From the NCBI GenBank assembly GCA_001898625.1, contig MKUP01000027.1, positions 62,001-126,000 on the forward strand: a DNA stretch of 64,000 bases, read 5' to 3'. Below, in pieces: positions 4,714-25,850 of the stretch (position 1 is the stretch's first letter; each line of letters begins with the position of its first letter). This DNA comes from Burkholderiales bacterium 67-32 (GTDB taxonomy: Bacteria; Pseudomonadota; Gammaproteobacteria; Burkholderiales; Burkholderiaceae_B). Position numbers and translations under genes: made by a program. Under the pieces are notes generated by a model. The model was not told the origin of the DNA. It worked only from the letters and a program-made list of their open reading frames with translations, and ran no database searches.

Positions 4714-5064
4714 CTACATCCCCACCCATACCCGGCCGGCATCGACCTTCGTGGCGAAGGTCCGCACGCCTTTCTTGCAGGGCGCGGACAGCGCCTGCCC
4801 GGTCCGGATGTCGAATCTGCCGAAGTGCAGCGGGCACTGCACGGTGCCGTTCTTGACGTAGCCGTCGGACAGGCGCGAACGCATGTGCGTACAGATGTCC
4901 GACGTGGCGTGATAGCCGTCGTCCAGGCGGAAGAGCGCCAACTCCAGCCCTCCCGTTTCCACGTGCAGCACTCCGCCGGTCTCCAGGTCGTTCGCGCCGC
5001 ATACCGGATGCCAGGACAGCGCCTGGTCGGCTTCGGTCTCCATTGCCGCAATACGCGCTTGCAT
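4714..5064 (-). CDS. Rieske [2Fe-2S] ferredoxin component
   Basis: CTHMRSRLSDGYVKNGTVQCPLHFGRFD, i.e. CxH...CxxH Rieske ligands in a 116-aa protein. Confidence 0.88.
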   Translation of the reverse strand: MQARIAAMETEADQALSWHPVCGANDLETGGVLHVETGGLELALFRLDDGYHATSDICTHMRSRLSDGYVKNGTVQCPLHFGRFDIRTGQALSAPCKKGVRTFATKVDAGRVWVGM

Positions 5065-5123: not shown

Positions 5124-5140
5124 AAACAGTATGCGTGTTT
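5124..5140 (+). promoter_or_regulatory. operator-like motif A, divergent promoter of Rieske ferredoxin / amidohydrolase
   Basis: AAACAGTATGCGTGTTT. Confidence 0.65.
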
Positions 5141-5178
5141 GTGGGCGCAAGAAAAACGTCCGTAGAGAGGAGAGCATC

Positions 5179-6618
5179 GTGTCAGGATTCGCAGACTATC
5201 CGGGAGACCAGGTGCGGGCCAAGGTCCGCCATCCCATCATCGACAGCGACGCGCACATCATCGAGTGCGAATTCGTGCTGAACGACTACGTCAAGGAGAT
5301 CGGCGGCGCCGAACTGATGGAGCGGTCGCGCCAGCGCGGCCGCAAGGGGCCGGCGTTCTCCGACAACGCCACCAAGGGCCTGTGGTGGGGCGCGCCTTCG
5401 GGCAGGAACACCAGCGATCGCGCCATGGCCATGCTGCCCAAGTACTTCCGGTCGCAGATGGACCGCGCGGGGCTGGACTTCGCCCACATGCTGACCACCA
5501 ACGGCATAGGCGGCCTGTACATCCCCGACGACGAACTGCGCCAAGTCCGCTGCCGCGCGCTCAACACCATGTATGCGGACATGTTCAAGGACGTGGGCGA
5601 CCGCATCCGTCCGGTGGCCGTCATTCCCACCTATACGCCAGAGGAAGCCATACGCGAGCTGGACCACGCGGTGCTCGAACTGGGGCACAAGGCGGTGATG
5701 ATAGGCACGGAGATCCGCGCGCCGCATCCCGACGTCGCCGCGGCCGCGCCGGAACTGGCGGCGCATGCGCAGAAGGTGACCTCCATCGCCATCGACAGCC
5801 CGCACGACTACGATCCGTTCTGGCGCCGATGCGTCGAACTGGGCGTGGCGCCGCTGTGCCACACCTCGGCCCACGGCGCCCGCACGCGCAATTCGCCCAC
5901 GAACTACGTTTTCAACCACCTGGGCAGTTTCGCGTCGGGTTCCGAATATTTCTGTCGCTCGCTGTTCCTGGGCGGCGTGACGAATCGCTTCCCCACGCTG
6001 AAGTTCGGTTTCCTGGAGTGCGGGGCGGGTTGGGCATTGACCCTGTTGAACGACATCGTCGAGCACTGGGAGAAGCGCAACGTGCGCTATCTGCAAAGCA
6101 GCCTGGACCCGGACAAGCTGGATATCGCGCTGATGACCGAGCTGTTCGAGAAGTTCGGCGACGCGCGCCACACGGCGGAACGCTTTCTGCAGAATCCCCA
6201 TCACGGACTGGCCAGGCCCGGGCGGCCGGCGCTGTTCGACGAGTTCGGCGCGGCCGGCATGACCGAGGTGCGCGACCTGCGCCGGTTGTTCTGCGACAAC
6301 TTCTATTTCGGCTGCGAGGCCGACGACCGGATGCTGTCGGTGGCGTTCAGCCGGCGCCTGAACCCGGTGGGGGCGACGTTGAAGGCCATGTTCGGATCCG
6401 ACATCGGGCACTGGGACGTGATGGATGCGCGCAGCATCCTGTCCGAAGCCTACAACCTGATCCAGGCCGAGCTGATCACGGAAGAGGATTTCAAGGCGCT
6501 GACCTTCGACAACTGCGCGGAAATGATGCTGTCGATGAATCCCGCCTATTTCGACGGGACGGTCATCCAGGACGCGGCGCACGCATTCCTGCGGGAGCGC
6601 ACGCCGGCGGCGGCCTGA
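5179..6618 (+). CDS. amidohydrolase-2 family metal-dependent hydrolase
   Basis: HPIIDSDAHIIE N-terminus, metal-hydrolase fold residues; GTG start at 5179 preferred over ATG 5131 because of RBS-like AGAGAGGAGAG and because the operator-like motif lies at 5124-5140. Confidence 0.82.
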   Translation: MSGFADYPGDQVRAKVRHPIIDSDAHIIECEFVLNDYVKEIGGAELMERSRQRGRKGPAFSDNATKGLWWGAPSGRNTSDRAMAMLPKYFRSQMDRAGLDFAHMLTTNGIGGLYIPDDELRQVRCRALNTMYADMFKDVGDRIRPVAVIPTYTPEEAIRELDHAVLELGHKAVMIGTEIRAPHPDVAAAAPELAAHAQKVTSIAIDSPHDYDPFWRRCVELGVAPLCHTSAHGARTRNSPTNYVFNHLGSFASGSEYFCRSLFLGGVTNRFPTLKFGFLECGAGWALTLLNDIVEHWEKRNVRYLQSSLDPDKLDIALMTELFEKFGDARHTAERFLQNPHHGLARPGRPALFDEFGAAGMTEVRDLRRLFCDNFYFGCEADDRMLSVAFSRRLNPVGATLKAMFGSDIGHWDVMDARSILSEAYNLIQAELITEEDFKALTFDNCAEMMLSMNPAYFDGTVIQDAAHAFLRERTPAAA

Positions 6619-6657
6619 TCCGCCGGCGCTCCGGACGCGGTCCGGAGCGCGCCGTGT

Positions 6658-7668
6658 TCAGGCCAGCGCCGCCAGGCGCTCGCGCCAGCGCGGCAGCACC
6701 TCGGGGTTGCGCACGTGCAGCGGCGTTTCCCCCCGCAGCGCGCGCAGGGTGTTTTCCAGCGCGACCCCGGGCATGCGGGCATACAGCTCTTCGGAATGGC
6801 CGACGACGTGGCCGGTGCCTATCACCGCCGGGTGCCTGCGCAGCGCATCGTCCGCCGGCAGCGGTTCGGTCTCCCAGGTATCGATGGCGGCGCCCGAGAG
6901 CCGTCCCGACTCCAGCGCGGCCAGCAGCGCCGCCTCGTCCACGCAGCCGCCGCGGCCGACGTTGATCAGGCTGGCGCCGGCTTTCATCTTCGCGATCGCG
7001 GCCGCGTCGATCAGATGATGGGTTTCCCGGGTCAGCGTGACGAGGACGACGGTTGTATCGGACTCCTCCAGCAAGGTGTCCAGCGATACCAGTTCGGCGC
7101 CGTGGTCCCGGACCACGTCGGCCTGCATGTAGGGGTCGGCGACGAGAATGCGGCAGCCCCAGGGTGCCAGCATCCGGGCAACGGTGCGGCCGATATTGCC
7201 GAAGCCCACCAGGCCAACCGTGGAGCCATGCACCATGCCGCCCAGCGGCGCGGGGCGCCAGACGCCGTCGGCCAGCGTACGCATCTTCGCCAGCAGCCGC
7301 TTGCGCAGCGCCGCGATCAGCATGACCGAAGCCTCGGCCATGCCGACGAAGTTCTCGGCTGCGGCGCCGTGCGCCACCACGATGCCGAGTTCGGTGGCCC
7401 GGGCGACGTCGATGTGCTCGGTGCCGATGATGGGGGAGGTGACCACCTTCAGCCGAGGCGAAGCCTCCAGCACTTCCGCCGGAATGCGGATGCCGTTGAA
7501 CATGCCGACGTAGGCGTCGGCCTCGGGACAGAAGCGGGCCATGAGCTCCGGGGTCCAGTGCCGCGCCTCCAGCGGCAGCCGGCTGACCGCGCAGCCCGCC
7601 GATGCCAGCAGGTCGGCCAGGCTTTCGTAGGGCCCCAGGCGGGCCGAGATGACCACGTTGTATGCCAT
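6658..7668 (-). CDS. D-isomer-specific 2-hydroxyacid dehydrogenase
   Basis: VGLVGFGNIGRTVARML, INVGRGGCVDEAAL, VIGTGHVVGHSEE motifs. Confidence 0.9.
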   Translation of the reverse strand: MAYNVVISARLGPYESLADLLASAGCAVSRLPLEARHWTPELMARFCPEADAYVGMFNGIRIPAEVLEASPRLKVVTSPIIGTEHIDVARATELGIVVAHGAAAENFVGMAEASVMLIAALRKRLLAKMRTLADGVWRPAPLGGMVHGSTVGLVGFGNIGRTVARMLAPWGCRILVADPYMQADVVRDHGAELVSLDTLLEESDTTVVLVTLTRETHHLIDAAAIAKMKAGASLINVGRGGCVDEAALLAALESGRLSGAAIDTWETEPLPADDALRRHPAVIGTGHVVGHSEELYARMPGVALENTLRALRGETPLHVRNPEVLPRWRERLAALA

Positions 7669-7709
7669 TGCTTTGCTCCTCTCTTCCGGTTGCCAATCGT
7701 TTTATACAG

Positions 7710-7747
7710 CTATACCATTATACTAATTATTTGGTAATACCAAATAA
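7710..7747. promoter_or_regulatory. operator-like motif B (TGGTATTACCA-type) between D-hydroxyacid dehydrogenase and ring-hydroxylating dioxygenase
   Basis: Perfect palindrome TTATTTGGT-AAT-ACCAAATAA (7727-7747) preceded by CTATACCATTATACTA (7710-7725). Confidence 0.7.
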
Positions 7748-7771
7748 GCAAACCCCCGGTAGGAGAGAGAC

Positions 7772-9199
7772 ATGAGCAAGAAAGACATTGCTTCGCTGGT
7801 GGACGACCGTCCCGAGGACGGCGTCTTCCGCCTGCATCGCAGCGTGTTCAGCGACCCCGAGATCTTCGAGATGGAAATGAAGTACATCTTCGAGCGGAAC
7901 TGGGTCTTCCTGGGCCTGGACTCGCAGGTTCCCCATCCCCACGACTACATGACGACGACGGTGGGCCGCCATCCGGTCGTTGTCATGCGCGATGGGGAAG
8001 GAAACCTGAATGCCTTCATCAACAGCTGTCCGCACAAGGGGGCCAAGCTGTGCCACCTTGCGCAGGGCAACCGCAAGATCCACGTTTGCCAATACCACAG
8101 CTGGTCGTTCGACAGCGCGGGCCGGATACGGGGGTTGAAGTTCAAGGACGACGGCCAGTACAGCCCCGCCTTCGACGACGACAGCCACGACCTGGCGGCG
8201 CTGCCGCGCTTCGAGGTCTACCGGGGCTTCATGTTCGGCGCCCTGTCCGCCGACGTCCTGCCGCTGTCCGAGTACCTGGGCGAGGCCAGGACCTTCATCG
8301 ACATCGCGGTCGACACCAGTCCGCGGGGCCTGGAGCTGGTACCGGGCGTGGTCGGCTTCACCTTCGAAGGCAACTGGAAGCTGCAACTGGAGAACTGCTC
8401 GGACCAGTATCACTTCACCTCCACCCACCCGTCCTATCTCAAGGTGCTGGACCGGCGCGCCGAGAAGGGCTGGGAAGGCACCGTGCGCGCCAACGTGCGG
8501 GGGCGGGGCGGGCGCAAGGCCATGCAGTTTCCGGCCGACGGGCTCGAGCACATCGCCGGCGGCTCCACCTCGTTCGAGCACGGCCACAACCTGAACTGGA
8601 ACCGGCGCACCGTCAACGATAGCCATCCGCTGTTCGAGCGCGCGGAGGAACTCAAGGAACGGTTTGGCGAAGCCCGGCGGGACTGGATGTTCAACACCCG
8701 CAACCTGACGTTGTTCCCCAATGTGCAGGTGGCCGAGAACGCCTCCAGCCAGTTGCGCATCATCCGGCCGATCTCGGTGGACAAGACCGAGATGCTGACC
8801 TACTGCATCGCCCCGGTCGGCGAAAGCGCCGCGGCGCGGGCCCAGCGCATCCGGCAGTACGAGGACTTCTTCAATCCCAGCGGCCTGGCCACGCCCGACG
8901 ACACCATCAACTATGAAGACTGCCAGGACGGCCACCTGAATCCGGTCGCCCCCTGGCTGCAAGGCCATGCGCGCGGCATGATGCTCGCCGGTCCCGACGG
9001 CGATCCGTTCATCGACCGGCTGGGCGTCAAGGCCTTGTCGTCGGTCATCGGCGGCGTGGAACTGGGCGACGAGACCATCTTCCACACCTATTACCGTTCC
9101 TGGCGGGCCTTGCTGCAGGCGGGCCAGCGCGCCGACGAGGCCGCCGCACGCAGCCAGCCCGCCCCCGTATCCGCCCGCCTCGTGGAGACCGTACGATGA
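7772..9199 (+). CDS. aromatic-ring-hydroxylating dioxygenase, alpha subunit (anthranilate/benzoate-dioxygenase-like)
   Basis: Rieske CPH-X17-CQYH, mononuclear Fe site ENCSDQYHFTSTH. Confidence 0.92.
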   Translation: MSKKDIASLVDDRPEDGVFRLHRSVFSDPEIFEMEMKYIFERNWVFLGLDSQVPHPHDYMTTTVGRHPVVVMRDGEGNLNAFINSCPHKGAKLCHLAQGNRKIHVCQYHSWSFDSAGRIRGLKFKDDGQYSPAFDDDSHDLAALPRFEVYRGFMFGALSADVLPLSEYLGEARTFIDIAVDTSPRGLELVPGVVGFTFEGNWKLQLENCSDQYHFTSTHPSYLKVLDRRAEKGWEGTVRANVRGRGGRKAMQFPADGLEHIAGGSTSFEHGHNLNWNRRTVNDSHPLFERAEELKERFGEARRDWMFNTRNLTLFPNVQVAENASSQLRIIRPISVDKTEMLTYCIAPVGESAAARAQRIRQYEDFFNPSGLATPDDTINYEDCQDGHLNPVAPWLQGHARGMMLAGPDGDPFIDRLGVKALSSVIGGVELGDETIFHTYYRSWRALLQAGQRADEAAARSQPAPVSARLVETVR

Positions 9200-9696
9200 A
9201 CCAAGCCCTGACGCCTGCCCACGCGGCGGAATACCTGTACCGCGAGGCCCACCTGCTGGACCGGCAGCGCTTTGACGAGTGGGTCGACCTGTACACCGGC
9301 GACGCGGTCTACTGGATCCCGGCCTGGAAGAGCGAGCACCAGCCCACGGAGAATCCCGAGACCGAGCTGTCCCTGGTGTATTGCGCGTCGCGCAATGCGC
9401 TGGTGGACCGCGTCTGGCGCCTGACCTCGAACCTGTCGGTCGCCTCGATGCCGCTGGCGCGCACGGCCCACGCCGTGTCCAACGTCATCGTCGAACAGGC
9501 CGGCGACGATACGATGGATCTGCGGTCGAGCTGGACCTCGCATGTCTACAATCCCAAGTACAAGTCGCAGCACGTCTATTTCGGATCGTACGAGCACCGG
9601 CTCCGGCGCGTGGACGAGGGCTGGAAGATCGCGCGCAAGAAGATCACGTTGATGAACGACTTCATCCCCACGGTCCTGGACTTGTACATGGTGTGA
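9196..9696 (+). CDS. aromatic-ring-hydroxylating dioxygenase, beta subunit
   Basis: LLDRQRFDEWVDLYTGDAVYWIP...RRVDEGWKIARKKITLMND; ATGA overlap with alpha subunit. Confidence 0.92.
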   Translation: MNQALTPAHAAEYLYREAHLLDRQRFDEWVDLYTGDAVYWIPAWKSEHQPTENPETELSLVYCASRNALVDRVWRLTSNLSVASMPLARTAHAVSNVIVEQAGDDTMDLRSSWTSHVYNPKYKSQHVYFGSYEHRLRRVDEGWKIARKKITLMNDFIPTVLDLYMV

Positions 9697-9732
9697 GCGC
9701 AAGCAGGCGGGAATCCCCCGGATGCCCGCCGA

Positions 9733-10536
9733 TCACCGCGCGGCCGCATAGCGCGGCGCGACGGTGCCGCTGGACAGGTGGCTGGCCATGGCTTGGCGCG
9801 CGGCTTCGTAGGCATTCCACTTCTCGCCGTCTTGCAGCGAAGGGATGGTCACTTTCTCGCCGCGCTCGAAACCCAGCAAAGCGGCCTCGACCAGGTCTTC
9901 GGCACGCATGACGATGCGCGGGTCCAGTTGCTCGACCGGCAGGCCGCCGATGGCCCAGAAGTCGGTGGCCGTGGCTCCGGGCAGCACTGCCTGCACCTGC
10001 ACGCCCTTGTCGGCCAGCTCGTGCTGCAGCGACTGGCTGAAAGCCAGCACGAAAGCCTTGCTGGCACCATAGACGCCGTTCAGGACCTCTGGCGCGAGAG
10101 CGACGATGGACGCGATATTGATGATCGCGCCCCGGCCACGCGCCACGAAACCCGGCACCGCGGCGTAGGCCAACCGCATCGGCGCGGTGGCGTTCAACTC
10201 GACCATGCGGGTCATCCGCTCCACGTCGGTTTGCAGCAACTGCGTATGCGTGCCGATGCCCGCGTTGTTCACGAGCAGGGTAATGCTGGCATCCCGGCGC
10301 AACGAGTCTTCCACCCGGGCCAGCTCGGAGCGGTCGTTCAGGTCGGCCGGCAGCACCTCCACCGAGCGGCCGGTACGGGTACTGATATCGCGGGCCAGCG
10401 CATTCAGCCGCTCGCGATTGCGGGCAACCAGAATCAGGTCGTAGCCGCGCCGTGCCAACCGGTCGGCGTACAGTGCGCCGATGCCGCTGGAGGCGCCGGT
10501 GATGAGCGCGGTGCCGGGGTGGGGGTGTTGTGCCAT
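9733..10536 (-). CDS. short-chain dehydrogenase/reductase
   Basis: ALITGASSGIGALYA, NNAGIG, YGASKAF. Confidence 0.92.
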   Translation of the reverse strand: MAQHPHPGTALITGASSGIGALYADRLARRGYDLILVARNRERLNALARDISTRTGRSVEVLPADLNDRSELARVEDSLRRDASITLLVNNAGIGTHTQLLQTDVERMTRMVELNATAPMRLAYAAVPGFVARGRGAIINIASIVALAPEVLNGVYGASKAFVLAFSQSLQHELADKGVQVQAVLPGATATDFWAIGGLPVEQLDPRIVMRAEDLVEAALLGFERGEKVTIPSLQDGEKWNAYEAARQAMASHLSSGTVAPRYAAAR

Positions 10537-10652
10537 GGTGAAACTCCTTGGGTTGACAGTAGGTCGACGGGGTCGATGCTGCGCTTGCCGAGAGGTGTCG
10601 TAAATGACGTATATAGTTATGAATCAGGACATACGCATCAAGGACGGACTCC

Positions 10653-11597: not shown

Positions 11598-11611
11598 GTC
11601 ATCCGCCGGCC

Positions 11612-12865
11612 TCAGAAGCGGTGCATGATCCCTATGCCCACGAGCTGCGGATCGGCGCCCACCGGCAGGCCGGACGGCGCCGAACTCATGTTGTTGCCGT
11701 TCCAGTCCAGGTTGTAGTTCCTGTCGTTCAGAATCTTCTGGTAGTTGACGTACAGGTTGGTGCGCTTGGACAAGAGGTAGCGGAAGGCCAACAGGTAGCC
11801 GTGGGCACCCGTGTCGTCACAGCGCGAGGCCACGTTGCAGCCGCTGATGTTGGCCAGGTGCATGTACTCGGCGATGAAGTGGTAGCGCTTGCCTTCGCCG
11901 AAATACTGCGACATGCCCAGGACCAGGCCGCGCTGCCGCAGCTTGTGGGCGCTGGGGTCGGCGGTGGCGCCCACGTTGAGCGAGGCGCCGCCGTTGGTGA
12001 CCTGGCTTTGCAGCAGGATCAGGCTGACCTGGCCCGAGTCCGAATACGAATAGCGCAGCCTGAGCTTGTGTCCCTCGCTCTGGCCCTGGGTGCCGGCAGG
12101 CAGCGCTCCGCTGGGCGCCGTCAGCTCGTTGCCGCGGTTGCGGGCATAGTCGTAGCCGTAGCCGAAGGGGCCCTTGGTGCCTTGCAGGGTCACGGCCCAC
12201 AGCGAGCCGTTGTTGCGGGTGGTCGGAGTGATCGTTTCCCGGTTGGTGGTGGAGGCCCCGACGATGACCTCGAACAGGCCGAACAGGCGCGGGGAGATGT
12301 ACTTGACCGTGTCATTCACGCGGACCACGCCCACCGCCATGCCGCGTCCGATTCCCCCGCTCTGCACGCCGAAGCCGCTGGAAACCCAGTCCGAGCCGGT
12401 CTGGTTGATGTAGGGGCTGGTCCAGAACAGGTCCTGCCGGCCGAAGCGCAGCGTGCCCAGCGCGTCGCTCTTCAGGCCGACGTACGTGGTGCGCGAGCCC
12501 AGGGTGCCGGTGGACGTGTTCGGCCTGCCGTTGGGGCCGATGTTGCCGCCGTTGTCCATGTTGAAGCCGCCTTCGATGACGAAGTGCGCGCTCAAGCCGT
12601 TGCCCAGCGATTCCGTGCCCCGGAAGCCCAGGCGCGATCCCGCGTCGTACAGGCGGCGCACGCGGGGGATGTCCGAGGCGGGGCCGGCGGTGGCTCCGGC
12701 CGCCTTGTACATGTCCAGGCCCACCGAGGCCTTGCCGTAGATCTGCACGCCGCTGCCGCCTGCCGCCTGGGCATGCGCCTGGCCGATGCATGCCGCGGCC
12801 AGGGCGGCCACGGTACAGGACAGATGCAGGCGATTGCCGTTACGGCCACGATCCGGTTTCATCAT
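11612..12865 (-). CDS. Gram-negative porin
   Basis: Signal peptide, SGVQIYGKASVGLDMYKAAG, RLGFRGTESLGNGLSAHFVIE, C-terminal ...VGIGIMHRF. Confidence 0.95.
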   Translation of the reverse strand: MMKPDRGRNGNRLHLSCTVAALAAACIGQAHAQAAGGSGVQIYGKASVGLDMYKAAGATAGPASDIPRVRRLYDAGSRLGFRGTESLGNGLSAHFVIEGGFNMDNGGNIGPNGRPNTSTGTLGSRTTYVGLKSDALGTLRFGRQDLFWTSPYINQTGSDWVSSGFGVQSGGIGRGMAVGVVRVNDTVKYISPRLFGLFEVIVGASTTNRETITPTTRNNGSLWAVTLQGTKGPFGYGYDYARNRGNELTAPSGALPAGTQGQSEGHKLRLRYSYSDSGQVSLILLQSQVTNGGASLNVGATADPSAHKLRQRGLVLGMSQYFGEGKRYHFIAEYMHLANISGCNVASRCDDTGAHGYLLAFRYLLSKRTNLYVNYQKILNDRNYNLDWNGNNMSSAPSGLPVGADPQLVGIGIMHRF

Positions 12866-12884
12866 TGTCTCCTCCTTTTTTGAT

Positions 12885-12928
12885 ATTACTGTATGCGTGT
12901 TATTGTTTTGCGCATACTGTATGAGTTA
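12885..12928. promoter_or_regulatory. two tandem operator-like motif A copies upstream of porin
   Basis: ATTACTGTATGCGTGTTA (12885-12902) and CATACTGTATGAGTTA (12913-12928). Confidence 0.7.
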
Positions 12929-12950
12929 AAGAAGGAGGTGTCAACGAAGA

Positions 12951-12973
12951 AAAACCCGGTCATGCCGGGTTTT
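12951..12973 (-). terminator. Rho-independent terminator-like hairpin downstream of the Rieske gene at 12996-14273
   Basis: AAAACCCGG-TCATG-CCGGGTTTT; T-run on the minus strand. Confidence 0.75.
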
Positions 12974-12995
12974 CTCTGGCGGGCGCGCGAGCAGG

Positions 12996-14273
12996 CTAGC
13001 GCGTCTGGACATCCTCGTCGCTCAGGCCCATCGCCTGGCGGTACGCGGCCTTGACCTCGTCCGGCTGGCCGGCCTGGAACGGATAGTCGGCCAAGTGCTT
13101 GCCGAGTATGGGATGCGCCAGAAGTTGCTCGCGGGTCAGGCCCTCGGTGAACAGGTGGCGCGCGGCGATGGGCAGCTCGATGCATTCGTTGGCGGCCGGG
13201 TCGCGGATCAGTCCGCTGGGATCGCGCCCGTCGGCCACGGCGTCCATGTCCTCGCCGAAGCGCTTGCGCAGCATGGCGATGCCACGGTCGCTGGAGGCCA
13301 GGTTCTCCTTGGTGCGGTCGGCCACCGTGCCTTGTCCGACCCAGGCCACGAAGTCCTGGTTCATGACGTGGCTGGAGATCCAGCGGCCGGTGTCGGGGTC
13401 CATCACGGGCCCGTGCCAGGCCGGGATGGGGCCTTGTTCATAGGGGTCCTGTTCCTTGGGGACGCGCGAGAACGCCCAGGCGATGCTGAGCGTATTTTCG
13501 TCGTCGATGGGGATGCGCCACTCGATGTGGTCGCCCAGGCAGAAGGCCTGCGGCCACAGGCAGACGCGGCCCACGGTCCACAGCGGATGGCGTTCGCTGG
13601 TGTCCTCGCGCAGCCGCTTGTAGATGATGCCGTAGTCGAATTCCTCGAAATCCACCTTGACGTGCGTGGGGGAGTAGGGGCCGGTCTCTCCCTTCAGTCG
13701 GATGCTCCAGTTCGAGTGCATCCATTCGAAGTGCACCGGGTCGATGGAGTTCTCCTGGCATTGCAGCCAGTTGCAGGGGATCTCGGAGATGACGATCTGC
13801 GCGAAGCCGTTCTTCCAGGTGAAGGGTTCCCAGTTGGGAACCAGCGGCGCGGGCTGCGGGCCGAGATAGGCCCACAGCATGCCGGCCTTCTGTTCCACGG
13901 GGTAGGCGGTGATGCGCAAGCGTTCTTTCATGCGCGCGTGCGGAGCCGCGATGTCCTCGTAGGGCTGCTCGGTACAGCGTCCGTCGCGGTCGAACAGCCA
14001 GCCGTGGTAGTTGCAGCGCAGGCCCGACTGCTCGACGAAGCCGTAGGACAGGTCCGCGCGGCGATGGGCGCAGCGCCGGTCGATCAGGCCAAAGTTGCCG
14101 CCCAGGTCCTTGTACAGAACGAGATCTTCCCCCAGCAGCCGGATGGGCTTGGTGTCCATCTTGTCGAATTCGCTGACCGCCGCGATGGGGTGCCAGTAGC
14201 GCCTCAGCAATTCCCCCATGGGGGTGCCGGGCCCCACCTGGGTCAATTGGCGGTTCTTCGCTTCGCTAAGCAT
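12996..14273 (-). CDS. Rieske (2Fe-2S) oxygenase, phthalate 4,5-dioxygenase/vanillate O-demethylase-like (paralogue A)
   Basis: CAHRRADLSYGFVEQSGLRCNYHGW; CQENSIDPVHFEWMH; start MLSEAKNRQLTQVGPGTPMG. Confidence 0.9.
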   Translation of the reverse strand: MLSEAKNRQLTQVGPGTPMGELLRRYWHPIAAVSEFDKMDTKPIRLLGEDLVLYKDLGGNFGLIDRRCAHRRADLSYGFVEQSGLRCNYHGWLFDRDGRCTEQPYEDIAAPHARMKERLRITAYPVEQKAGMLWAYLGPQPAPLVPNWEPFTWKNGFAQIVISEIPCNWLQCQENSIDPVHFEWMHSNWSIRLKGETGPYSPTHVKVDFEEFDYGIIYKRLREDTSERHPLWTVGRVCLWPQAFCLGDHIEWRIPIDDENTLSIAWAFSRVPKEQDPYEQGPIPAWHGPVMDPDTGRWISSHVMNQDFVAWVGQGTVADRTKENLASSDRGIAMLRKRFGEDMDAVADGRDPSGLIRDPAANECIELPIAARHLFTEGLTREQLLAHPILGKHLADYPFQAGQPDEVKAAYRQAMGLSDEDVQTR

Positions 14274-14358
14274 GTGTCGTCTCCCTCTGCGTCCGGCGAC
14301 CACCATGCGGGTCTGCCTGCAAGTCGTTCATTGTTGGTGAATCAAGTCTGCTATTTAA

Positions 14359-14376
14359 CATACAGTATGCGTGTTA
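14359..14376 (+). promoter_or_regulatory. operator-like motif A upstream of Rieske paralogue A
   Basis: CATACAGTATGCGTGTTA. Confidence 0.7.
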
Positions 14377-14480
14377 GGGCGTTCGTGTCAAGTTGGAACG
14401 GCGCGGACTGTCGTGGCGCACAAGCGTGTCTGGCGATGTTCCTCGGGAAATCCCTGGCCATGATTATAGACTTAATCTAT

Positions 14481-14495
14481 ATAATGGTATTACAG
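14481..14495 (+). promoter_or_regulatory. operator-like motif B upstream of TPP enzyme-reductase operon
   Basis: ATAATGGTATTACAG. Confidence 0.5.
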
Positions 14496-14543
14496 TTAGT
14501 GCAAATGAAGATCGCGACCACTCACTCGAAGCCAGGAACCAAA

Positions 14544-16295
14544 ATGAGACAAGACCAAGCGAATGCCGCCCCCCAGGACGGCGAAGTCATTCCGGCGCAA
14601 TCGGTAGGCGAGGCCTACCTGGCGCTGCTCAAGCAACGCGGGATCGACTACTTCTACGTCGGCGCCGGCACGGATACGGTGTCCATCGTCGAGGCCTACG
14701 CCCGAGCGGACCAGTCCGGCATCGCTTTTCCGACGCCCGTGCTGTGTACGCACGAGAACCTGGCCGTGGGCATGGCGCATGGCTACTACATGATTTCGCA
14801 GAAGCCCCAGGTCGTGATGCTGCACGTCAGCGTGGGCGCGGCCAATGCGGTGTGCGGAATCATGAACGCCTCGCGCAGCCAGGTTCCGATGCTGTTCACG
14901 GCCGGCCGTACGCCCCTGTTCCAGGACGGCAAGCGCGGTTCGCGCAATGGCGAGATCCATTGGGCGCAGGAAATGCTCGACCAGGGCGGCATGGTGCGCG
15001 AGCTGGTCAAGTGGGACTATGAGCTGCGGGACGGCTGCAACATGGAGCAGGTGGTCGACCGCGCCATCGGCATCAGCATGGCCGAGCCGCGCGGCCCCGT
15101 CTATCTGATGCTGCCGCGCGAGATCCTGGCTCAGGAAGTGGACGGCTTCCGGCCGTCCAAGCCCGTGGCCATCCCCGCGCCGCCCCATCCGGACGTCCAG
15201 GCCGTGCGCGAACTCGCCCGGCGGATCGCCGCGGCCAGCCATCCGGTCATCGTCACCACCGCCAGCGGCGCGGATCCGGAAACCGTGGGCCTGCTGGTCA
15301 AGCTGGCAGAGCGCTTCGGCGTGGGCGTGGCCGAGGCCAAGGCCCGCCACACCAATTTTCCGTCCAGCCACGCGCTGCACCTGGGGCACGATGCGGACGC
15401 GGTCTTCGCCCAGGCTGACGCGCTGCTGTTCCTGGAGACCGATGTGCCCTGGATCCCGGGCAAGACGCGGCCGCGCGACGAGGCCTTCGTCGCCCATGCC
15501 GGCACCGATCCGTTGTTCAACCGCTACGCGGTGCGCAGCTTCCGCTCCGATCTGACGCTGACGACCAACGCCCGCGCGTTGATCGAGGCGCTGCATGCGG
15601 CGCTGGAAGAGCTGGGCGCGGCCGCTGGCGCGGCCGCCCGCCGGACCGCCCTGGAAGCGTCGGCCGCCGCCACGCGGCAGGCCGCGGCCGGCGTGATGCA
15701 GCGCGTGCTGGCCAAGGACGGCCCCATCACCAAGTTGTTCCTGACGCACTGCCTGGACGAGGTGCGCCCGCAGGACGCGATCCTCGTCAACGAGTATTCG
15801 GCCATCCGGCCGCAGATGGGCTTCGACGAGCCCGGCACCTACTTCGGCAATCCGTCCGCCGCGGGTCTGGGCTGGGGCCTGCCTGCCGCGCTGGGGGCGC
15901 AGCAGGCGGCACCCGACAAGACCGTCATCTGCGTGGTGGGCGACGGCGCGTACATCTTCGCCAACCCGGCTGCCTGCCACCATGCCGCCGCGGCGCACAA
16001 GCTGCCGGTGCTGACCGTGGTGTTCAACAATGCCCGCTGGGAAGCGGTGTATCGGTCGACGCTCACGGTGTATCCCGGCACGCATGCCGCCCGCTACGCG
16101 GAGGAGCATGAGACCAGGACCGGTCCGCTGTCGTCGCTGGATCCGGTGCCGGACTTCGAGAAGTACGCCGAGGCCTCAGGCGGCTGGGCCGAGCGCGTGA
16201 CGCGCCGCGAAGACCTGGTTCCGGCGCTGAGACGTGCGCTGGAAGTGGTCACCAAGGAAAAGCGCCACGCGCTGTTGAACGTGATCGCCGCCTGA
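14544..16295 (+). CDS. thiamine-pyrophosphate-dependent enzyme (acetolactate synthase/benzoylformate decarboxylase superfamily)
   Basis: THENLAVGMAHGYY (catalytic Glu region), VVGDGAYIFANPAACHHAAAAHKLPVLTVVFNN (TPP-binding motif). Alternative in-frame start at 14505. Confidence 0.9.
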   Translation: MRQDQANAAPQDGEVIPAQSVGEAYLALLKQRGIDYFYVGAGTDTVSIVEAYARADQSGIAFPTPVLCTHENLAVGMAHGYYMISQKPQVVMLHVSVGAANAVCGIMNASRSQVPMLFTAGRTPLFQDGKRGSRNGEIHWAQEMLDQGGMVRELVKWDYELRDGCNMEQVVDRAIGISMAEPRGPVYLMLPREILAQEVDGFRPSKPVAIPAPPHPDVQAVRELARRIAAASHPVIVTTASGADPETVGLLVKLAERFGVGVAEAKARHTNFPSSHALHLGHDADAVFAQADALLFLETDVPWIPGKTRPRDEAFVAHAGTDPLFNRYAVRSFRSDLTLTTNARALIEALHAALEELGAAAGAAARRTALEASAAATRQAAAGVMQRVLAKDGPITKLFLTHCLDEVRPQDAILVNEYSAIRPQMGFDEPGTYFGNPSAAGLGWGLPAALGAQQAAPDKTVICVVGDGAYIFANPAACHHAAAAHKLPVLTVVFNNARWEAVYRSTLTVYPGTHAARYAEEHETRTGPLSSLDPVPDFEKYAEASGGWAERVTRREDLVPALRRALEVVTKEKRHALLNVIAA

Positions 16296-16311
16296 TCCGG
16301 GGACCCGTACC

Positions 16312-17283
16312 GTGAGCGCCAGCCTTGACGTGCACATCCGCGCCATTCGCTACGAAGCGCAGGGCATTCTTTCGTACGAACTGCGGCCGCCGCCGGACCA
16401 GGGCGGCGCGGAGCTGCCGCCCTTCACCGCGGGCGCCCATGTCGACGTCCACCTGCGGGACGGCATGGTGCGCAGCTATTCCCTGCTCAACGACGATGCC
16501 GAGCGCGGACGCTATGTCATCGCCGTGAACAAGGATCCCGCCGGCCGAGGCGGATCGCGCTACATGCACGAAGCCTTGAAGGTCGGCGACAGCCTGGCGA
16601 TCAGCGCGCCGCGCAACCACTTTGCCCTGGACGAAGGGGCCCGGCATTCGATCATGATCGCCGGGGGCATAGGCATTACGCCGCTGTGGTCCATGGTCCA
16701 GAAGCTCGAGCGCCTGGGCCGTTCGTGGGAGCTCCACTACAGCGCGCGGACCCGCCAGCATGCCGCGCTGCTGGACCGGCTGGAGCAATTGCCGGCGGAC
16801 GCGCGGCGGCGCGTGCACGTCAATTTCGACCACGAGCCGGGCGCGCGGATGCTGGACCTCGCGGCCATCGTATCCGCGGCGGCGCCGGATGCGCATTTCT
16901 ATTGCTGCGGTCCCGCCGGCATGCTGCGGGCCTTCGAAGCGGCCACCGCGTGCCGCGACGCGGGCTTCGTCCATCTGGAGCACTTCGGCGCCGACGCCGC
17001 GCCGGCGCCGGCACAGGGCGCATTCACGGTCCATCTGGCGAAGGCCGGCCGCGACGTGGCGGTGCCGGCCGGCTCCTCCATCCTCGACGCCTTGCTCGCG
17101 GCCGGCGTGGACGTGGGCCATTCCTGCCTGGAAGGGGTGTGCGGCAGCTGCGAGGTGGCGGTGCTGGAAGGCGTGCCGGAACATCGCGACCTGGTCCTGA
17201 CCCGGGCCGAGAAGGCCGGCAACCGGAGCATCATGGTCTGCTGCTCCGGCTGCAAGGGCGAGCGCCTGGTCCTGGATCTTTGA
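16312..17283 (+). CDS. ferredoxin-NAD(P)H reductase, VanB/phthalate dioxygenase reductase type
   Basis: RSYSLLND, MIAGGIGITPL, C-terminal plant-type [2Fe-2S] CLEGVCGSCEVAVLEG...C. Confidence 0.93.
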   Translation: MSASLDVHIRAIRYEAQGILSYELRPPPDQGGAELPPFTAGAHVDVHLRDGMVRSYSLLNDDAERGRYVIAVNKDPAGRGGSRYMHEALKVGDSLAISAPRNHFALDEGARHSIMIAGGIGITPLWSMVQKLERLGRSWELHYSARTRQHAALLDRLEQLPADARRRVHVNFDHEPGARMLDLAAIVSAAAPDAHFYCCGPAGMLRAFEAATACRDAGFVHLEHFGADAAPAPAQGAFTVHLAKAGRDVAVPAGSSILDALLAAGVDVGHSCLEGVCGSCEVAVLEGVPEHRDLVLTRAEKAGNRSIMVCCSGCKGERLVLDL

Positions 17284-17305
17284 CCGGGGCGCCGCCCCGC
17301 CGGCT

Positions 17306-17968
17306 TCAACCGCCCGCCAGCCGCTTTTCCACCAGGCCCTGCACCGCCTTGTCGTAGCCCGCCGCGAATTCCGCGAACACCGGGTCCGATTCCATCGTCT
17401 TCCACCAGCGCGCGATCCGACCCGTGCCCGCGGTCGGATCCGCGAGCCCGAACATGGGCGCGGCCACGCGGCGGATCTGGACCATGGGCGGCAGCAGCGC
17501 GCAGTCGGCCAGGGACGGCTGCGCGCTGGCGGCATACGGCGCATCGGCCATGTGGCGCTCGACATGGGCCAGCCCCGCAGCCAGGCCTTCGAGCGCCGCC
17601 GCGCGGGCCTTCAGGTCGGCGTCGGCCGCGCCCACCTGCCGCATCAGCGTGGTGCTGTGCGCCGCGGCATACAGGTCGTAGACGCGCGCGATGAGACGCG
17701 CCCGCGCCTTGTCCTGTGGCGTGCCCGGCAGCCCGGGGCGCTCCGGATGCATGTCCTCCAGGTAGTCGCAGATGACGCTCGATTCGGGCAGCGACTGGCC
17801 GTCGTCCGTTTGCAGCACCGGTATCTTGCCGATCGGATTGATGGCCTTGAACTCCGGCGAATGCAGGCCGCCGGGTGGCGACTCGCGCGTCAGGTCCAGG
17901 CCCTTGAGCCGCGCGAACAGCATGACGCGGGCGGTATAGGGCGAAGGGGGAAAACCGATGAGTTTCAT
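17306..17968 (-). CDS. glutathione S-transferase family protein
   Basis: MKLIGFPPSPYTARVML, GKIPVLQTDDGQSLPESSVICDYLE. Confidence 0.92.
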   Translation of the reverse strand: MKLIGFPPSPYTARVMLFARLKGLDLTRESPPGGLHSPEFKAINPIGKIPVLQTDDGQSLPESSVICDYLEDMHPERPGLPGTPQDKARARLIARVYDLYAAAHSTTLMRQVGAADADLKARAAALEGLAAGLAHVERHMADAPYAASAQPSLADCALLPPMVQIRRVAAPMFGLADPTAGTGRIARWWKTMESDPVFAEFAAGYDKAVQGLVEKRLAGG

Positions 17969-18022
17969 GAAGTCTCCTTGGGTGGGCGAGTGGTGCAAGG
18001 CTTGCACCATTGTGTATATAGT

Positions 18023-18041
18023 AATACAGTATGCGTAATTA
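18023..18041 (+). promoter_or_regulatory. operator-like motif A in GST / LldD-like divergent promoter
   Basis: AATACAGTATGCGTAATTA. Confidence 0.7.
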
Positions 18042-18069
18042 AGAATCCAAGTCAAGGCAAGGGACAGCC

Positions 18070-19248
18070 ATGCATATCGAGTCGGTGTCGTGCATCGACG
18101 ACCTGCGGCGCGCCGCGCTGGCGCGGATCCCGCGATTTGCCTACACCTTCCTGGCCGGCGGTGCCGGCAACGACGCCGGGGTGCGCCGCAACGAGGAAGC
18201 GCTGGCACGCCTGCTGTTCGCGCCGCGCGGCATGGCGACGGGACGGGTGGACACGAGCGTGCGGCTGTTCGGCCGCGTCTATGCGCAGCCCTTCGGCTTC
18301 GCGCCGGTCGGCATGGCCAACCTGGCCTGGGCCGGATGCGATCTCATGCTGGCCGAGACGGCCCAGCGTGAATCGTTGCCTTATGTGATCAGCACGGCCG
18401 CGTCCACCGAGCTGGAGGAACTGGCCGGGCACGCGCCCGACAGCTGCTGGTTCCAGCTCTACATGCTGCGCGACGATGAACTGAACTTCGCGCTGCTGGA
18501 TCGGGTGGCGGCGGCGGGTATCGAGGTCCTGGTCGTGACTGTGGATACCCCGGTGCGCTCGCGGCGCAACGGTTCCATACGCGAGCGCTTCGAGCAGCCG
18601 TTCCAGCCGCATCCCCGCTTCGTGCTGGACGTGGCGCGGCATCCGCGCTGGGCCCTGCGCACGGCGCGCGCCGGCATGCCCAACCTGATGAATTATTCGC
18701 GCTATGTGGAAGGCGGCGACATCCACCGGGTGGCCGCTTTCATGAAGGCGCAGTCGCGCGGCGGAGTGAGCTGGGACGACATCGCCATGCTGCGCCGGAA
18801 GTGGAAGGGGCCGCTGGTGATCAAGGGCATCCTGGATGCCGGCGATGCTTCGCGCGCGGCCCGGGAGGGCGCCGATGCCGTCTGGGTATCCAACCACGGC
18901 GGCCGGCAGCTCGAATCCGCGCCGGCCTCCATTGCGGTACTGCCGGCGGTAAAAGAGGCGGTGGGGGCGCTGCCGGTGCTGTTCGACAGCGGCGTGCGCG
19001 GCGGCGAGGACATCGTCAAGGCCGGCGCGCTGGGCGCCGCGATGGCCTTCTGCGGGCGCGCGCCCATCTTCGGCGCGGCGGCATTCGGCGCCGCCGGCGT
19101 GGCCAAGGCGCACGCGGTACTGGCCGACGAGGTACGGACGACGCTGGCGCAGATCGGCTGCCGCCGCTTCGGGGATTTGTCGCCGGCTTTCATCCACCGC
19201 GGCGAACCCGCGCAGGGCGAGCCCGCCGTGGCGGCCCGCGCGGCCTGA
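18070..19248 (+). CDS. FMN-dependent alpha-hydroxyacid dehydrogenase/oxidase (LldD/MdlB family)
   Basis: FAPVGMANLAW, CWFQLYMLRD, VIKGILDAGDA, VWVSNHGGRQLES, DSGVRGGEDIVKA. Confidence 0.94.
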   Translation: MHIESVSCIDDLRRAALARIPRFAYTFLAGGAGNDAGVRRNEEALARLLFAPRGMATGRVDTSVRLFGRVYAQPFGFAPVGMANLAWAGCDLMLAETAQRESLPYVISTAASTELEELAGHAPDSCWFQLYMLRDDELNFALLDRVAAAGIEVLVVTVDTPVRSRRNGSIRERFEQPFQPHPRFVLDVARHPRWALRTARAGMPNLMNYSRYVEGGDIHRVAAFMKAQSRGGVSWDDIAMLRRKWKGPLVIKGILDAGDASRAAREGADAVWVSNHGGRQLESAPASIAVLPAVKEAVGALPVLFDSGVRGGEDIVKAGALGAAMAFCGRAPIFGAAAFGAAGVAKAHAVLADEVRTTLAQIGCRRFGDLSPAFIHRGEPAQGEPAVAARAA

Positions 19249-19271
19249 CGGGCCTCCCACGAGACCGTGGA

Positions 19272-20267
19272 TTATTCCGGGCTGATGCCTTCGGCCTTGA
19301 TGACCTGCTTCCAGCGATCGAATTCGGAGCGGGTGAGACGGCCCAGGTCCTCGGGCGGGCCCAGGACCACGTTGAAGCCTGTATCGGCCAGCGCGGTGCG
19401 CATCGCCGGCGCATCGAAGATGGCCTTCAGCTCGCGGTTGAGCCGAGCCACGACGGGCGCCGGCGTGCCCGCGGGCGCGTACAACCCGACCCAGACCGCG
19501 AGCCGGTAGCCGGGATAGCCCAGTTCCTCCAGAGTGGGCACGTCGGCCATCAGCGGCGAGCGCGCGCCGCCCGTCTGCGCGATGGCCTTGAGCTTGCCGG
19601 AGGCCACCAGCGGCCGCGCCGCCTCGATGGGCGCGATCATCATGGTCACGCTGCCCTGGACCACGTCCATGATCGCGGTGTTCAGGCCGCTGGCGGGGAT
19701 GTGGCGCATCTTCACCCCCACCATGTTCTGCAGCACGGTCGTGTACAGGTGGGCGGTGGAAGCGATGCCCGGCGAGGCATAGGACGCATCGTCGGGGCGG
19801 GCCTTGAGCAGGGCCACCAGTTCCTTGAAGTTGCCGGCCGGCGTGTTCGCGCCGGTGACGACGACCTGGGCGCTTTCGGCGATCTGGCCCACGGGCACGA
19901 AGCTCTTGACCGGATCGTAGGGCGTGGGGCGGAAAGCGGGCGTGATGACCAGCGTGGTGGGACCGACCATGAGCGTGTGGCCGTCCGGCGCGGCGCCGGC
20001 GGCATAGGCCGTACCGATGATGCCGCTGGCGCCCGAGCGGTTCTCGACGTAGGTGTTCTGCCCCAGCCGCTGCGACAGTTGTTCGGCCGCGCGCCGGGCG
20101 ATGGCGTCCGCGCTGGTGCCCGGGCTGTAGGGAACGACGATCTTGACCGCGCGGCGGGGGTAGGGCGACGAGGCGGCCGGGTCGGACTGCGCCTGGACGC
20201 CGGTGCAACAGACGAGCAGCCCGACCGCGAGCGGCAGTCCGGCTGAAAACGGGAACGCGTGAATCAT
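19272..20267 (-). CDS. Bug/TctC-family tripartite tricarboxylate transporter substrate-binding protein
   Basis: YPRRAVKIVVPYSPGTSADAIARRAAEQLSQRLGQ; start at 20267 supported by GGAGAC RBS. Confidence 0.93.
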   Translation of the reverse strand: MIHAFPFSAGLPLAVGLLVCCTGVQAQSDPAASSPYPRRAVKIVVPYSPGTSADAIARRAAEQLSQRLGQNTYVENRSGASGIIGTAYAAGAAPDGHTLMVGPTTLVITPAFRPTPYDPVKSFVPVGQIAESAQVVVTGANTPAGNFKELVALLKARPDDASYASPGIASTAHLYTTVLQNMVGVKMRHIPASGLNTAIMDVVQGSVTMMIAPIEAARPLVASGKLKAIAQTGGARSPLMADVPTLEELGYPGYRLAVWVGLYAPAGTPAPVVARLNRELKAIFDAPAMRTALADTGFNVVLGPPEDLGRLTRSEFDRWKQVIKAEGISPE

Positions 20268-20428
20268 GGCTGTCTCCATATCGGGTGGGGCCGGCTTTCT
20301 GTGCGCCGGGCTCTATATATAATATATAATATATATAAATCTTGAAAAGAGAAAGCGTGATGCGCACGTGACGGAGCCCGCGACCTTTTGACAAAGGCCG
20401 CGGGCGGGTCCGGAGAAAAGTGAGTGCG

Positions 20429-21175
20429 TCAGTCCTCGCGCGAGGCGGGGTCCGCTTCCTGGGACAGCGTCCTGGCGCGCTGGTAGGCCAGCCGTTCCTG
20501 CATGAGCCGGGCCGCTTCCACGCCGTTGCCGGACTCGATGGCCTCGAGCAGCAGCTTGTGGTGGCGCACGATGCGGACCGCCGAGGCCGAGGTCAGGTTG
20601 GGGCGCAGCACCGGTTCGAGCACGAAGCTCAGGGCATGGAACTGGGCCAGCAGGATGCGGCTGTGGGAGGCGCGCACGATGGCTTCGTGAAAGCGCATGG
20701 CCGCATCGGCGAAGCGGTCGAGTTCGTTCTTCAGCGAAGACAGTTCGGCCAGGACGGCGCGCAGATGTTCCAGGTCGGGTTCGTCGCGCCGTTCGGCCGC
20801 CAGCCTGGCGGCCATTTCCTCGATCGCCATCTGGGCGTCGAATACTTCGCCCGAGGTGATGCCGATGAGCTTCAGGTGGATGGCGAGCGCGTCGGCCAGC
20901 CGGTCCGGGTTGCCCTGGGCGACCCAGACGCCGCCGCGGGCGCCCATGCGGATCTCGACGACGCCGAGGCCTTCCAGGGTGCGCAGGGCATCGCGCGCCG
21001 CCATGCGGCTGACGCCGAACTGCTCGGACAGCGCGGCTTCGCTGCCCAGGAATTGCCCGGCGACGATTTCCCGGTTCAGGACCGCCGCCCGTATCTGCGC
21101 CACGATTCCGCCCGACAGCGTGGTGTTGGGGACGGCTGCCCACGAGGGGGGCGACGAAAGGGACTTGCTGGCCAA
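20429..21175 (-). CDS. GntR-family regulator, FadR/FCD subfamily
   Basis: FLGSEAALSEQFGVSRMAARDALRTLEGLGVVEIRMGARGG plus FCD domain. Confidence 0.9.
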   Translation of the reverse strand: MASKSLSSPPSWAAVPNTTLSGGIVAQIRAAVLNREIVAGQFLGSEAALSEQFGVSRMAARDALRTLEGLGVVEIRMGARGGVWVAQGNPDRLADALAIHLKLIGITSGEVFDAQMAIEEMAARLAAERRDEPDLEHLRAVLAELSSLKNELDRFADAAMRFHEAIVRASHSRILLAQFHALSFVLEPVLRPNLTSASAVRIVRHHKLLLEAIESGNGVEAARLMQERLAYQRARTLSQEADPASRED

Positions 21176-21318
21176 TCCGGTTCCTTTGAGCGCAAAGCGT
21201 GATGGCGGTGGACCGCATTATAGGGCGCCATGCCTTGCCTCGTTTAAGTATGATATATAATATAGATAAGCCGTGGAGCCTCGCGCTCTTCCTTTCGATC
21301 CTTAGACACTGGCTGATC

Positions 21319-22587
21319 ATGCTGAACCAAGAGAAGAACGAGTTGCTGACCCGCGTGGGACGGGGCACGCCCATGGGGGACCTGCTGCGGCGCTACTGGA
21401 TGCCGATCGCGGGTGTCACGGAGTTCGACCGCCGCGCCACCAAGCCCATGCGCCTGTTCGGCGAAGACCTGGTGCTTTATCGCGACCTGGAAGGCAATTG
21501 GGGGCTGGTCGATCGCCATTGCCCCCACCGCCGGGCAGACCTCGCCTACGGCTTCCCGGAATCCGAGGGCCTGCGCTGCAACTACCACGGGTGGCGCTTC
21601 GGCGCGGACGGCTCCTGCCTGGAGCAGCCCTACGAGGACGTCGCGCACCCCGAGGCCCGGATGAAGGACCGCATCCGGATCACGGCCTATCCCGTGCAGG
21701 AAAAGGCGGGCCTCCTATGGGCCTACATGGGGCCGGCGCCCGCGCCGCTCGTGCCGGACTGGGAAGCCTTTTCCTGGCCCAACGGCTTTCGCCAGATCGT
21801 CATTTCGGAGATCCCCTGCAACTGGTTCCAGTGCCAGGAAAACTCCATCGATCCGGTGCACTTCGAATGGATGCACAACAACTGGAGCCTGCGCCAGCAG
21901 GGCGTGCTGCAACCCTATTCGCCCGCGCACAAGGAGATCGGCTTCGAGGAGTTCGAGCACGGTTTCCTGTACCGGCGGGTCCGGGGCAACGGCAGGAAGG
22001 AGGATCCGATGTGGGCGGTGGGGCGCGTGTGCCTGTGGCCCAACGCCGTCTTCCTGGGCGACCACTTCGAATGGCGCGTACCCATCGACGACGAGAACAC
22101 GCTCAGCGTGTGCTGGTCCTACACCCGCGTTCCCCGTGAAAGCGAGCCCTACGTGCAGGCGTCCATTCCCGCCTGGCACGGTCCCATCCGCGACGAGCAC
22201 GGCGACTGGATCTCGTCGCACGTGATGAACCAGGACTTCGTGGCCTGGGTGGGGCAGGGGCGGATCGCCGACCGCAGCCTGGAAAACCTGAGCGCCAGCG
22301 ACCGGGGCATCACCATGATCCGCAAGAAATTCTTCGAGGAACTGGACGCCGTGGCGGCGGGCGCCGACCCGAAGGGGGTGCTGCGCGATCCGGACCGGAA
22401 CCACGAGGTGGAACTGCCGCTGGCCTTTCGCGAAATCCTGACCGGCGGCATGCCGCTGGCGGAACTGAAGGCCCATCCGATATTCGGCCGGCACCTGCAC
22501 GACTATGTCTTCCAGGCTGGCCAGCCCGAGCCGGTGGCGCGCGCCTATCGCGAGGCCATGGGGCTGGAGGAAGGCGGGGGCCACTGA
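21319..22587 (+). CDS. Rieske (2Fe-2S) oxygenase, phthalate 4,5-dioxygenase/vanillate O-demethylase-like (paralogue B)
   Basis: CPHRRADLAYGFPESEGLRCNYHGW; CQENSIDPVHFEWMH; aligns along its length with the 12996-14273 product. Confidence 0.92.
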   Translation: MLNQEKNELLTRVGRGTPMGDLLRRYWMPIAGVTEFDRRATKPMRLFGEDLVLYRDLEGNWGLVDRHCPHRRADLAYGFPESEGLRCNYHGWRFGADGSCLEQPYEDVAHPEARMKDRIRITAYPVQEKAGLLWAYMGPAPAPLVPDWEAFSWPNGFRQIVISEIPCNWFQCQENSIDPVHFEWMHNNWSLRQQGVLQPYSPAHKEIGFEEFEHGFLYRRVRGNGRKEDPMWAVGRVCLWPNAVFLGDHFEWRVPIDDENTLSVCWSYTRVPRESEPYVQASIPAWHGPIRDEHGDWISSHVMNQDFVAWVGQGRIADRSLENLSASDRGITMIRKKFFEELDAVAAGADPKGVLRDPDRNHEVELPLAFREILTGGMPLAELKAHPIFGRHLHDYVFQAGQPEPVARAYREAMGLEEGGGH

Positions 22588-22616
22588 GCCCTGGTCCAAA
22601 CGCGGTGGATATGTAT

Positions 22617-22634
22617 AATACTGTATGAGTGTTA
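22617..22634 (+). promoter_or_regulatory. operator-like motif A upstream of ligJ-like/cobW/ligB/rraA operon
   Basis: AATACTGTATGAGTGTTA. Confidence 0.7.
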
Positions 22635-23667: not shown

Positions 23668-23717
23668 GAACCAGGACGGGGCCGCCGCCGGCGCGCCCCG
23701 CGCCCGAAGGGACGGAC

Positions 23718-24776: not shown

Positions 24777-24821
24777 CCATGACAACGTATCGAACGCACG
24801 CCGTGATCCAAGGAGAAGAAA

Positions 24822-25829: not shown

Positions 25830-25850
25830 CGCGGCGCAAGAACCAAGGGA

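Follow-up and report, generated by a model that had tools for sequence, protein, structure and literature searches.

We describe a short DNA element, motif A, which recurs at the promoters of a catabolic gene set in Burkholderiales bacterium 67-32 and is very probably the operator of a GntR-family protein, here termed G1, that most likely represses this set. The window, i.e. the whole stretch of DNA that was analyzed, comprises 64,000 nucleotides (nt) of contig C27 (MKUP01000027.1; C27:62001-126000), and coordinates without a contig label are window positions. The G1 gene is found about 6 kb to the left of the window (C27:55472-56218). An initial annotation had proposed that motif A is a shared operator, defines a dispersed catabolic regulon, and is bound by an FCD (FadR-type) GntR protein. 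Sequence comparison supports this proposal, but not the choice of the regulator, which had been sought in the GntR proteins encoded at 3862 (G0) or 20429 (G2); G1, a third GntR protein encoded outside the window, is the best candidate.

Distribution of the motif

All six motif A strings of the initial annotation were confirmed in position, and all six are intergenic and upstream of genes. The first site (5124-5140, + strand, score 27.3) is situated between a Rieske ferredoxin gene (-) and an amidohydrolase gene (+) and is conserved in Pigmentiphaga kullae and in the congener G007. Two sites precede the porin gene: a proximal one with the top score of the window (12885-12902, +, 35.2), and a second one (12910-12928), recovered by pattern and by profile, whose CATACTGTATG dyad can be read on both strands and overlies the -10 region of the porin promoter. 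The fourth site (14359-14376, +, 34.4; genome-wide E=0.002) covers the -10 region of a LigXa/phthalate-dioxygenase-like Rieske gene (-), the fifth (18023-18041, +, 31.9) lies between a glutathione S-transferase gene (-) and the gene of a flavin mononucleotide (FMN)-dependent dehydrogenase (+), and the sixth (22617-22634, +, 32.6) is located upstream of a ligY-like operon.

The sites are far in excess of chance expectation. When up to two mismatches were allowed, the pattern ATACWGTATGMGT matched nine times in the window, compared with 0.61 matches expected by shuffling (100 shuffles, maximum 4). Eight of the nine matches fall at the six sites; some of these overlap, as the dyad matches on either strand. 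The ninth, at 43112, is weak (two mismatches) and is the sole additional match, so that the earlier statement that the motif does not occur in the remaining 40 kb holds. In addition, a 26-position profile was built from 13 sites, all of which stem from other genera or from distant congeners. This profile ranked the six sites at the top of the window with 21-35 bits, whereas the best scores in 40 simulated windows did not exceed 16.8 bits.

A confinement of the motif to an 18-kb region, as had been assumed, proved wrong, because further strong sites are present at C27:56442 and C11:239149; weaker profile matches were found at C25:47423, C11:233505, and C27:56243. The site at C27:56442, to the left of the window, is situated between the G1 gene and a ligB-ligXa-like-opp operon. 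A sequence-only model derived from the profile was used to scan the full 6.66-Mb genome, a check that had been suggested together with the six sites. At E≤1, eight matches were obtained, namely the six window sites, and one site each on C11, in front of an HD-domain gene, and on C25, in front of the gene of a TctC-type solute receptor (C25:47423; L023 7424). All eight are located at plausible target promoters, and a scatter at background frequency, which would have argued against an operator, was not observed.

Three congeners (G003, G005, and G007) have matches beyond their clusters whose scores equal that of the TctC site, which suggests, judged by the sites themselves, that the TctC-promoter site is conserved among congeners. 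Weak matches at C25:6659, C25:269799, C26:138816, and C30:31847 are below or near the profile background, and their loci carry none of the gene set, save for a distant TctC gene adjoining C30:31847. Scattered exact motif matches in G023, G030, G042, G045, and G048 were judged to be due to chance, as these genera do not contain G1 and no cluster genes adjoin the matches; the neighborhood of the match in G045 has only weak Rieske similarity (29-34%).

Co-occurrence of the motif with G1

The genome belongs to Pigmentiphaga (Alcaligenaceae), with P. kullae and P. humi among its relatives, and not to the surroundings of Bordetella and Achromobacter, which had been taken for related genera. The motif cluster is present in 8 of 11 Pigmentiphaga genomes, exactly those with G1, and is missing from the three genomes that do not have the G1 group. 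In a family sample of 251 genomes, G1 is restricted to the same eight. Four genomes of Pandoraea and two of Rhodanobacteraceae encode orthologues with 52-58% identity to G1, again amid motif A sites and the same set of enzyme genes. Conversely, LigY-bearing loci without a G1 orthologue (in Aminobacter, which has a 39% identical FCD paralogue, in Polymorphobacter, and in G635) do not contain a motif A cluster. Sites that are orthologous between close relatives do not count as independent.

G1 is a member of the FadR (FCD) subfamily of the GntR family, with an N-terminal GntR winged helix-turn-helix domain (PF00392, E=1e-15) and a C-terminal FCD domain (PF07729, E=6e-25). The genome encodes 58 FCD proteins, four of which form a paralogue group of FCD-GntR proteins: G1, G0 (3862-4704, +), G2 (20429-21175, -), and one protein encoded on C11. 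A weaker, conserved motif A-like site precedes the G1 start by 25 bp and is kept in G002, G003, G005, and G007, indicating a putative autoregulation of G1. Outside of the paralogue group, a further FCD-GntR gene is present at about 37518-38093 (+).

Structure of the operator

The core shared by 22 sites, taken from this genome and from distant relatives, reads CATAC-W-GTATG and is followed on one side by C/A-GT. Farther out, 10-11 bp from the center, A/T is conserved on either side (in 22/22 and 21/22 sites on the left, and as TT on the right); these counts include related sites and overstate independence. The operator had been described as asymmetric, which is partly right: the CGT linker and the exact TT(A) occur on one side only, while the core is dyadic and the outer A/T patches are two-sided. 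The sequence predicted to be bound by G1 is CATACWGTATGCGTGTTA.

The 26 aligned sites read CATAC-W-GTATG(C)GTGTTA and do not contain GT-N2/3-AC, nor do they conform to the common FadR-subfamily consensus NyGTM-N0-1-KACNy. The latter is typical of the subfamily, with stated exceptions, and is not strictly defining (PMC4494728). The recognition region of G1, SE[NS]xL...VSRLPIREA, is nearly invariant wherever the motif is kept, and it differs in G0 and G2. G1 reads SEN (SES in one orthologue) at a position where its paralogue G0 reads SER, and the most frequent predicted contacts in the FadR subfamily include Arg-G and Asn-A (PMC4494728). This suggests that the changed recognition residue of G1 may fit the changed operator.

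Overlap with promoters

At 17 of 26 sites, a hexamer that matches TTGACA with no more than one mismatch is located 15-18 bp upstream of the operator-core TACWGT, a count that again includes related sites, with the same consequence for independence. Eight sites have the hexamer at one single offset, compared with a mean of 0.3 per offset. All 17 implied promoters point at members of the gene set; one doubtful case in Pandoraea points at the gene of a major facilitator superfamily transporter. In the window, a TTGACA box faces the porin gene (12939-12944, -) and is 17 bp upstream of the TACAGT in the second porin site (string at 12913), another TTGACA box (14386-14391, -) precedes the TACTGT in the 14359 site by 18 bp, and a TTGACT box faces the glutathione S-transferase gene (18050-18055, -). 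Based on this spacing, the operator overlies the -10 box, which in turn implies repression. Because the core is a dyad, TACWGT could be used as a -10 box in either direction. Exclusion of the polymerase by a repressor that is relieved by a ligand is the simplest reading, in which the sign of control is deduced from the position of the operator.

Several points weigh against G1 as a plain repressor acting via motif A. The operator core departs from the published consensus GT-N2/3-AC of the FadR subfamily (PMC4494728). In this strain, cross-binding could occur by G0 and by the unnamed C11 paralogue, both of which have 37-38% identity to G1. One region encodes G1, G0, and G2 in this genome, in P. 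kullae, and in G007, and synteny within these genomes alone cannot separate the three. Furthermore, no recognizable -35 box at the expected spacing was found at 9 of 26 sites, including the 5124 site and the site of the ligY operon (22617) in this genome; a TATAAT sequence is located directly upstream of the latter.

The sites without a good -35 box would also be in line with G1 as an activator or a dual regulator, as activator-dependent promoters may have this property, and FadR-type proteins in general can activate as well as repress. We nevertheless consider this possibility unlikely, because the 17 other operators lie over the -10 box of promoters with a near-consensus TTGACA, and a protein bound there would normally block the polymerase.

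Paralogues of G1 as alternative binders

It is highly unlikely that G2 or G0 binds motif A, as had been proposed initially. Both are FCD-GntR proteins encoded in the same cluster, both are 38-40% identical to G1, and every motif-bearing Pigmentiphaga genome contains G2. However, only three of these eight genomes contain G0, which is missing from the other five and, like G2, from the Pandoraea and Rhodanobacteraceae genomes. G2 does not have an orthologue in Pandoraea, in Rudaea, or in the other Rhodanobacteraceae genome, although the motif is intact in all of them, and the best match to G2 there is G1. In P. humi and in a fragmented metagenome-assembled genome (G009), G2 is encoded on another contig, together with only a Rieske gene (and TctC in P. 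humi), and no strong motif A site is nearby; the P. humi locus with G2 (L122) did not yield any profile match of at least 18.5. The recognition helices also differ, with SEA..SRMAARD and SER..SRVAIRD in the paralogues compared with SEN..SRLPIRE in G1, a comparison that covers the named paralogues.

Moreover, all eight genomes have an AT-rich element of another kind in the promoter region of G2 itself. This element (TAAGTATGATATATAATATA) is located in the divergent region between G2 and LigXa_B and is echoed at the TctC promoter around 20320-20350. In the window it is found at 21245-21269 (TAAGTATGATATATAATATAGATAA; TATGATATATAATATA-like) and is distinct from motif A. Because the element is conserved in all eight genomes and recurs at the TctC promoter, G2 probably has a separate operator of its own, for which this element is the candidate. 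Another GntR protein, G3, which is encoded next to the C11 site, was rejected as the binder, as its orthologues in G004 and G005 occur without the HD-domain gene and without the site.

The idea that motif A is not an operator at all, but a promoter element such as a special -10 box or a sigma-factor site, could draw on the -10 spacing of TACWGT from TTGACA at most sites, yet it deserves almost no credence, because the core is a dyad, the motif tracks the presence of a single GntR gene in two proteobacterial classes, and the conserved one-sided CGTGTTA flank ignores promoter polarity, being upstream of the -10 box in some promoters and downstream in others, which rules out the flank as a promoter feature and assigns it to the regulator.

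Genes of the regulon

The candidate targets in the window start with the Rieske ferredoxin (4714-5064, -; PF00355) and the amidohydrolase-family protein (5179-6618, +; PF04909). The start of the latter gene is more likely a GTG preceded by GGAG than the ATG that lies within the motif. They are followed by the porin (11612-12865, -; PF13609) and by a Rieske oxygenase alpha subunit of the phthalate dioxygenase/LigXa kind (12996-14306, -; PF00355, PF19301), which matched phthalate 4,5-dioxygenase in the PDB with 2e-47. Further targets are the glutathione S-transferase (17306-17968, -) and the FMN-dependent, LldD-like dehydrogenase (18070-19248, +). A pair of genes for the alpha and beta subunits of a ring-hydroxylating dioxygenase (7772-9696) is also part of the cluster; it lacks a separate motif A site in this genome, although the beta-subunit gene of G008 has one. 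A long high-G+C frame at 13095-16295 (+) holds a real gene for a thiamine-diphosphate enzyme at 14544-16295.

The gene at 22660-23667 (+) had been annotated as LigJ, but it encodes a LigY-like hydrolase of a meta-cleavage compound. Over its full length it is 71% identical to LigY, the hydrolase of the OH-DDVA meta-cleavage compound (PDB 5vn5/6e6i; 552 bits, 6e-165), compared with 229 bits and 6e-67 for LigJ. The same operon encodes a CobW-type metallochaperone GTPase (23625-24776, +), a LigB-type class III extradiol dioxygenase (24822-25829, +), and two proteins of the RraA/HMG-CHA aldolase family (25851-27888, +). The match of this second LigB protein (LigB2) to LigB in the PDB is weak (6e-6). 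A second very long frame that results from high G+C (23427-26552, -) is antisense to the ligY operon. At the left end of the window, OppD- and OppF-like ATPases of an ATP-binding cassette (ABC) transporter and an aldehyde dehydrogenase are encoded at 228-3790 (+). Judged by gene order and overlapping ends, the ligB-ligXa-opp operon with its motif A site at C27:56442 appears to run into the window; these genes would be its distal end, and G0 would be its last gene.

Two further candidates are encoded at a distance in Pigmentiphaga, on C11. The HD-domain gene and the amine-oxidase gene are 78% and 69% identical, respectively, to genes in the motif cluster of Pandoraea, and the amine-oxidase-family gene has a motif A match upstream in both genera (L019 2506, i.e. 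C11:233505, and L154 20568). Because their orthologues are located in the Pandoraea cluster, the regulon membership of both genes is independently supported. The HD-domain proteins themselves (L019 7319-8077 on C11 and L154 327-1073; 78% identical orthologues) have a weak Pfam HD match and no PDB relative. To our knowledge, no role for an amine oxidase in LigXa/LigY-type pathways has been described.

A LigXa-type Rieske oxygenase, a LigB-type extradiol dioxygenase, and LigY are thus found jointly under motif A. The breakdown route is probably 5,5'-dehydrodivanillate-like, i.e. of the LigXa/LigZ/LigY kind, and the most likely substrate is a lignin biphenyl of the 5,5'-dehydrodivanillate type. 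LigY would release 4-carboxy-2-hydroxypenta-2,4-dienoate, and the hydrated form of this product could be split by an HMG/CHA (RraA-type) aldolase. On plasmids of Polymorphobacter and Aminobacter (L255, L256), modules in the order LigY - dioxygenase - RraA - RraA - aldolase adjoin MarR, LysR, FCD, and IclR regulators and do not have motif A. From their gene content, these modules appear to be the same metabolic core under different control.

Discussion

In the mechanism that we propose, G1, presumably as a dimer, would bind the CATAC-W-GTATG dyad with its A/T patch on each side and its one-sided CGT extension. Bound G1 would exclude RNA polymerase, since the operator TACWGT is identical to the -10 hexamer at most of the promoters, and it would leave the DNA in response to a metabolite of the pathway, probably an aromatic carboxylate. 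The regulon would comprise Rieske oxygenases and their ferredoxin, two extradiol dioxygenases, LigY, RraA-type aldolases, CobW, the porin, the ABC importer, the aldehyde dehydrogenase, the glutathione S-transferase, and the FMN dehydrogenase, and, on other contigs, the HD-domain protein, the amine oxidase, and the TctC receptor.

The closest comparison is the DdvR regulon of Sphingobium sp. SYK-6, which contains the same kinds of enzymes (the Rieske oxygenase LigXa, the extradiol dioxygenase LigZ, and LigY) together with uptake genes. In SYK-6, genes of this regulon (ligXa, ligZ, ligY, ddvK, and ddvT) are repressed by DdvR in the absence of the substrate, so that there, too, genes of the set are silenced by a local repressor (PMC6874591). 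However, DdvR is a MarR-type protein and the candidate here is an FCD-GntR protein, so that a similar task would fall to an unrelated regulator. No MarR-type regulator was found among those cluster genes that were scanned, which are a part of the cluster. Entry through the outer membrane looks porin-based here instead of TonB-dependent, and the substrate here is a predicted one.

Within the FadR subfamily, LldR of C. glutamicum (2di3) and PdhR and NanR of E. coli share both domains and PDB relatives with G1. Local sites and sites in divergons, such as those found here, are typical of the subfamily (PMC4494728), whereas the AC-N-GT arrangement of motif A (CATAC-W-GTATG) differs from the published GT-N2/3-AC boxes (TKGT/ACMA). 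BioR, a GntR-family protein and a further member of the subfamily, also has an operator that is a short, AT-rich, non-consensus palindrome, TTATMKATAA (as quoted in PMC4494728), but the sequence and the regulon are different.

A description of motif A or of GntR control of 5,5'-dehydrodivanillate breakdown was not found in the open-access literature. We give an even chance to the full claim that this is a novel regulon found in both Beta- and Gammaproteobacteria, whose GntR/FCD repressor, a protein not related to DdvR, would control the LigXa/LigZ/LigY-type breakdown of biphenyl lignin dimers via an AC-N-GT dyad that doubles as a two-way -10 box.

The results link a catabolic gene set on three different contigs to a single candidate regulator and its specific site, and they correct the choice of the GntR protein. 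The operator and its regulator offer a test case for FadR-type proteins in which a changed recognition residue may read a changed operator. If the substrate assignment is right, this would be a second, unrelated control system for the breakdown of 5-5 biphenyl lignin structures; it would offer an operator/-10 pair for use as a sensor promoter, and it would add candidates for transport and enzymes (the HD-domain protein, the amine oxidase, the glutathione S-transferase, and the FMN dehydrogenase) beyond the published SYK-6 gene list as we read it.

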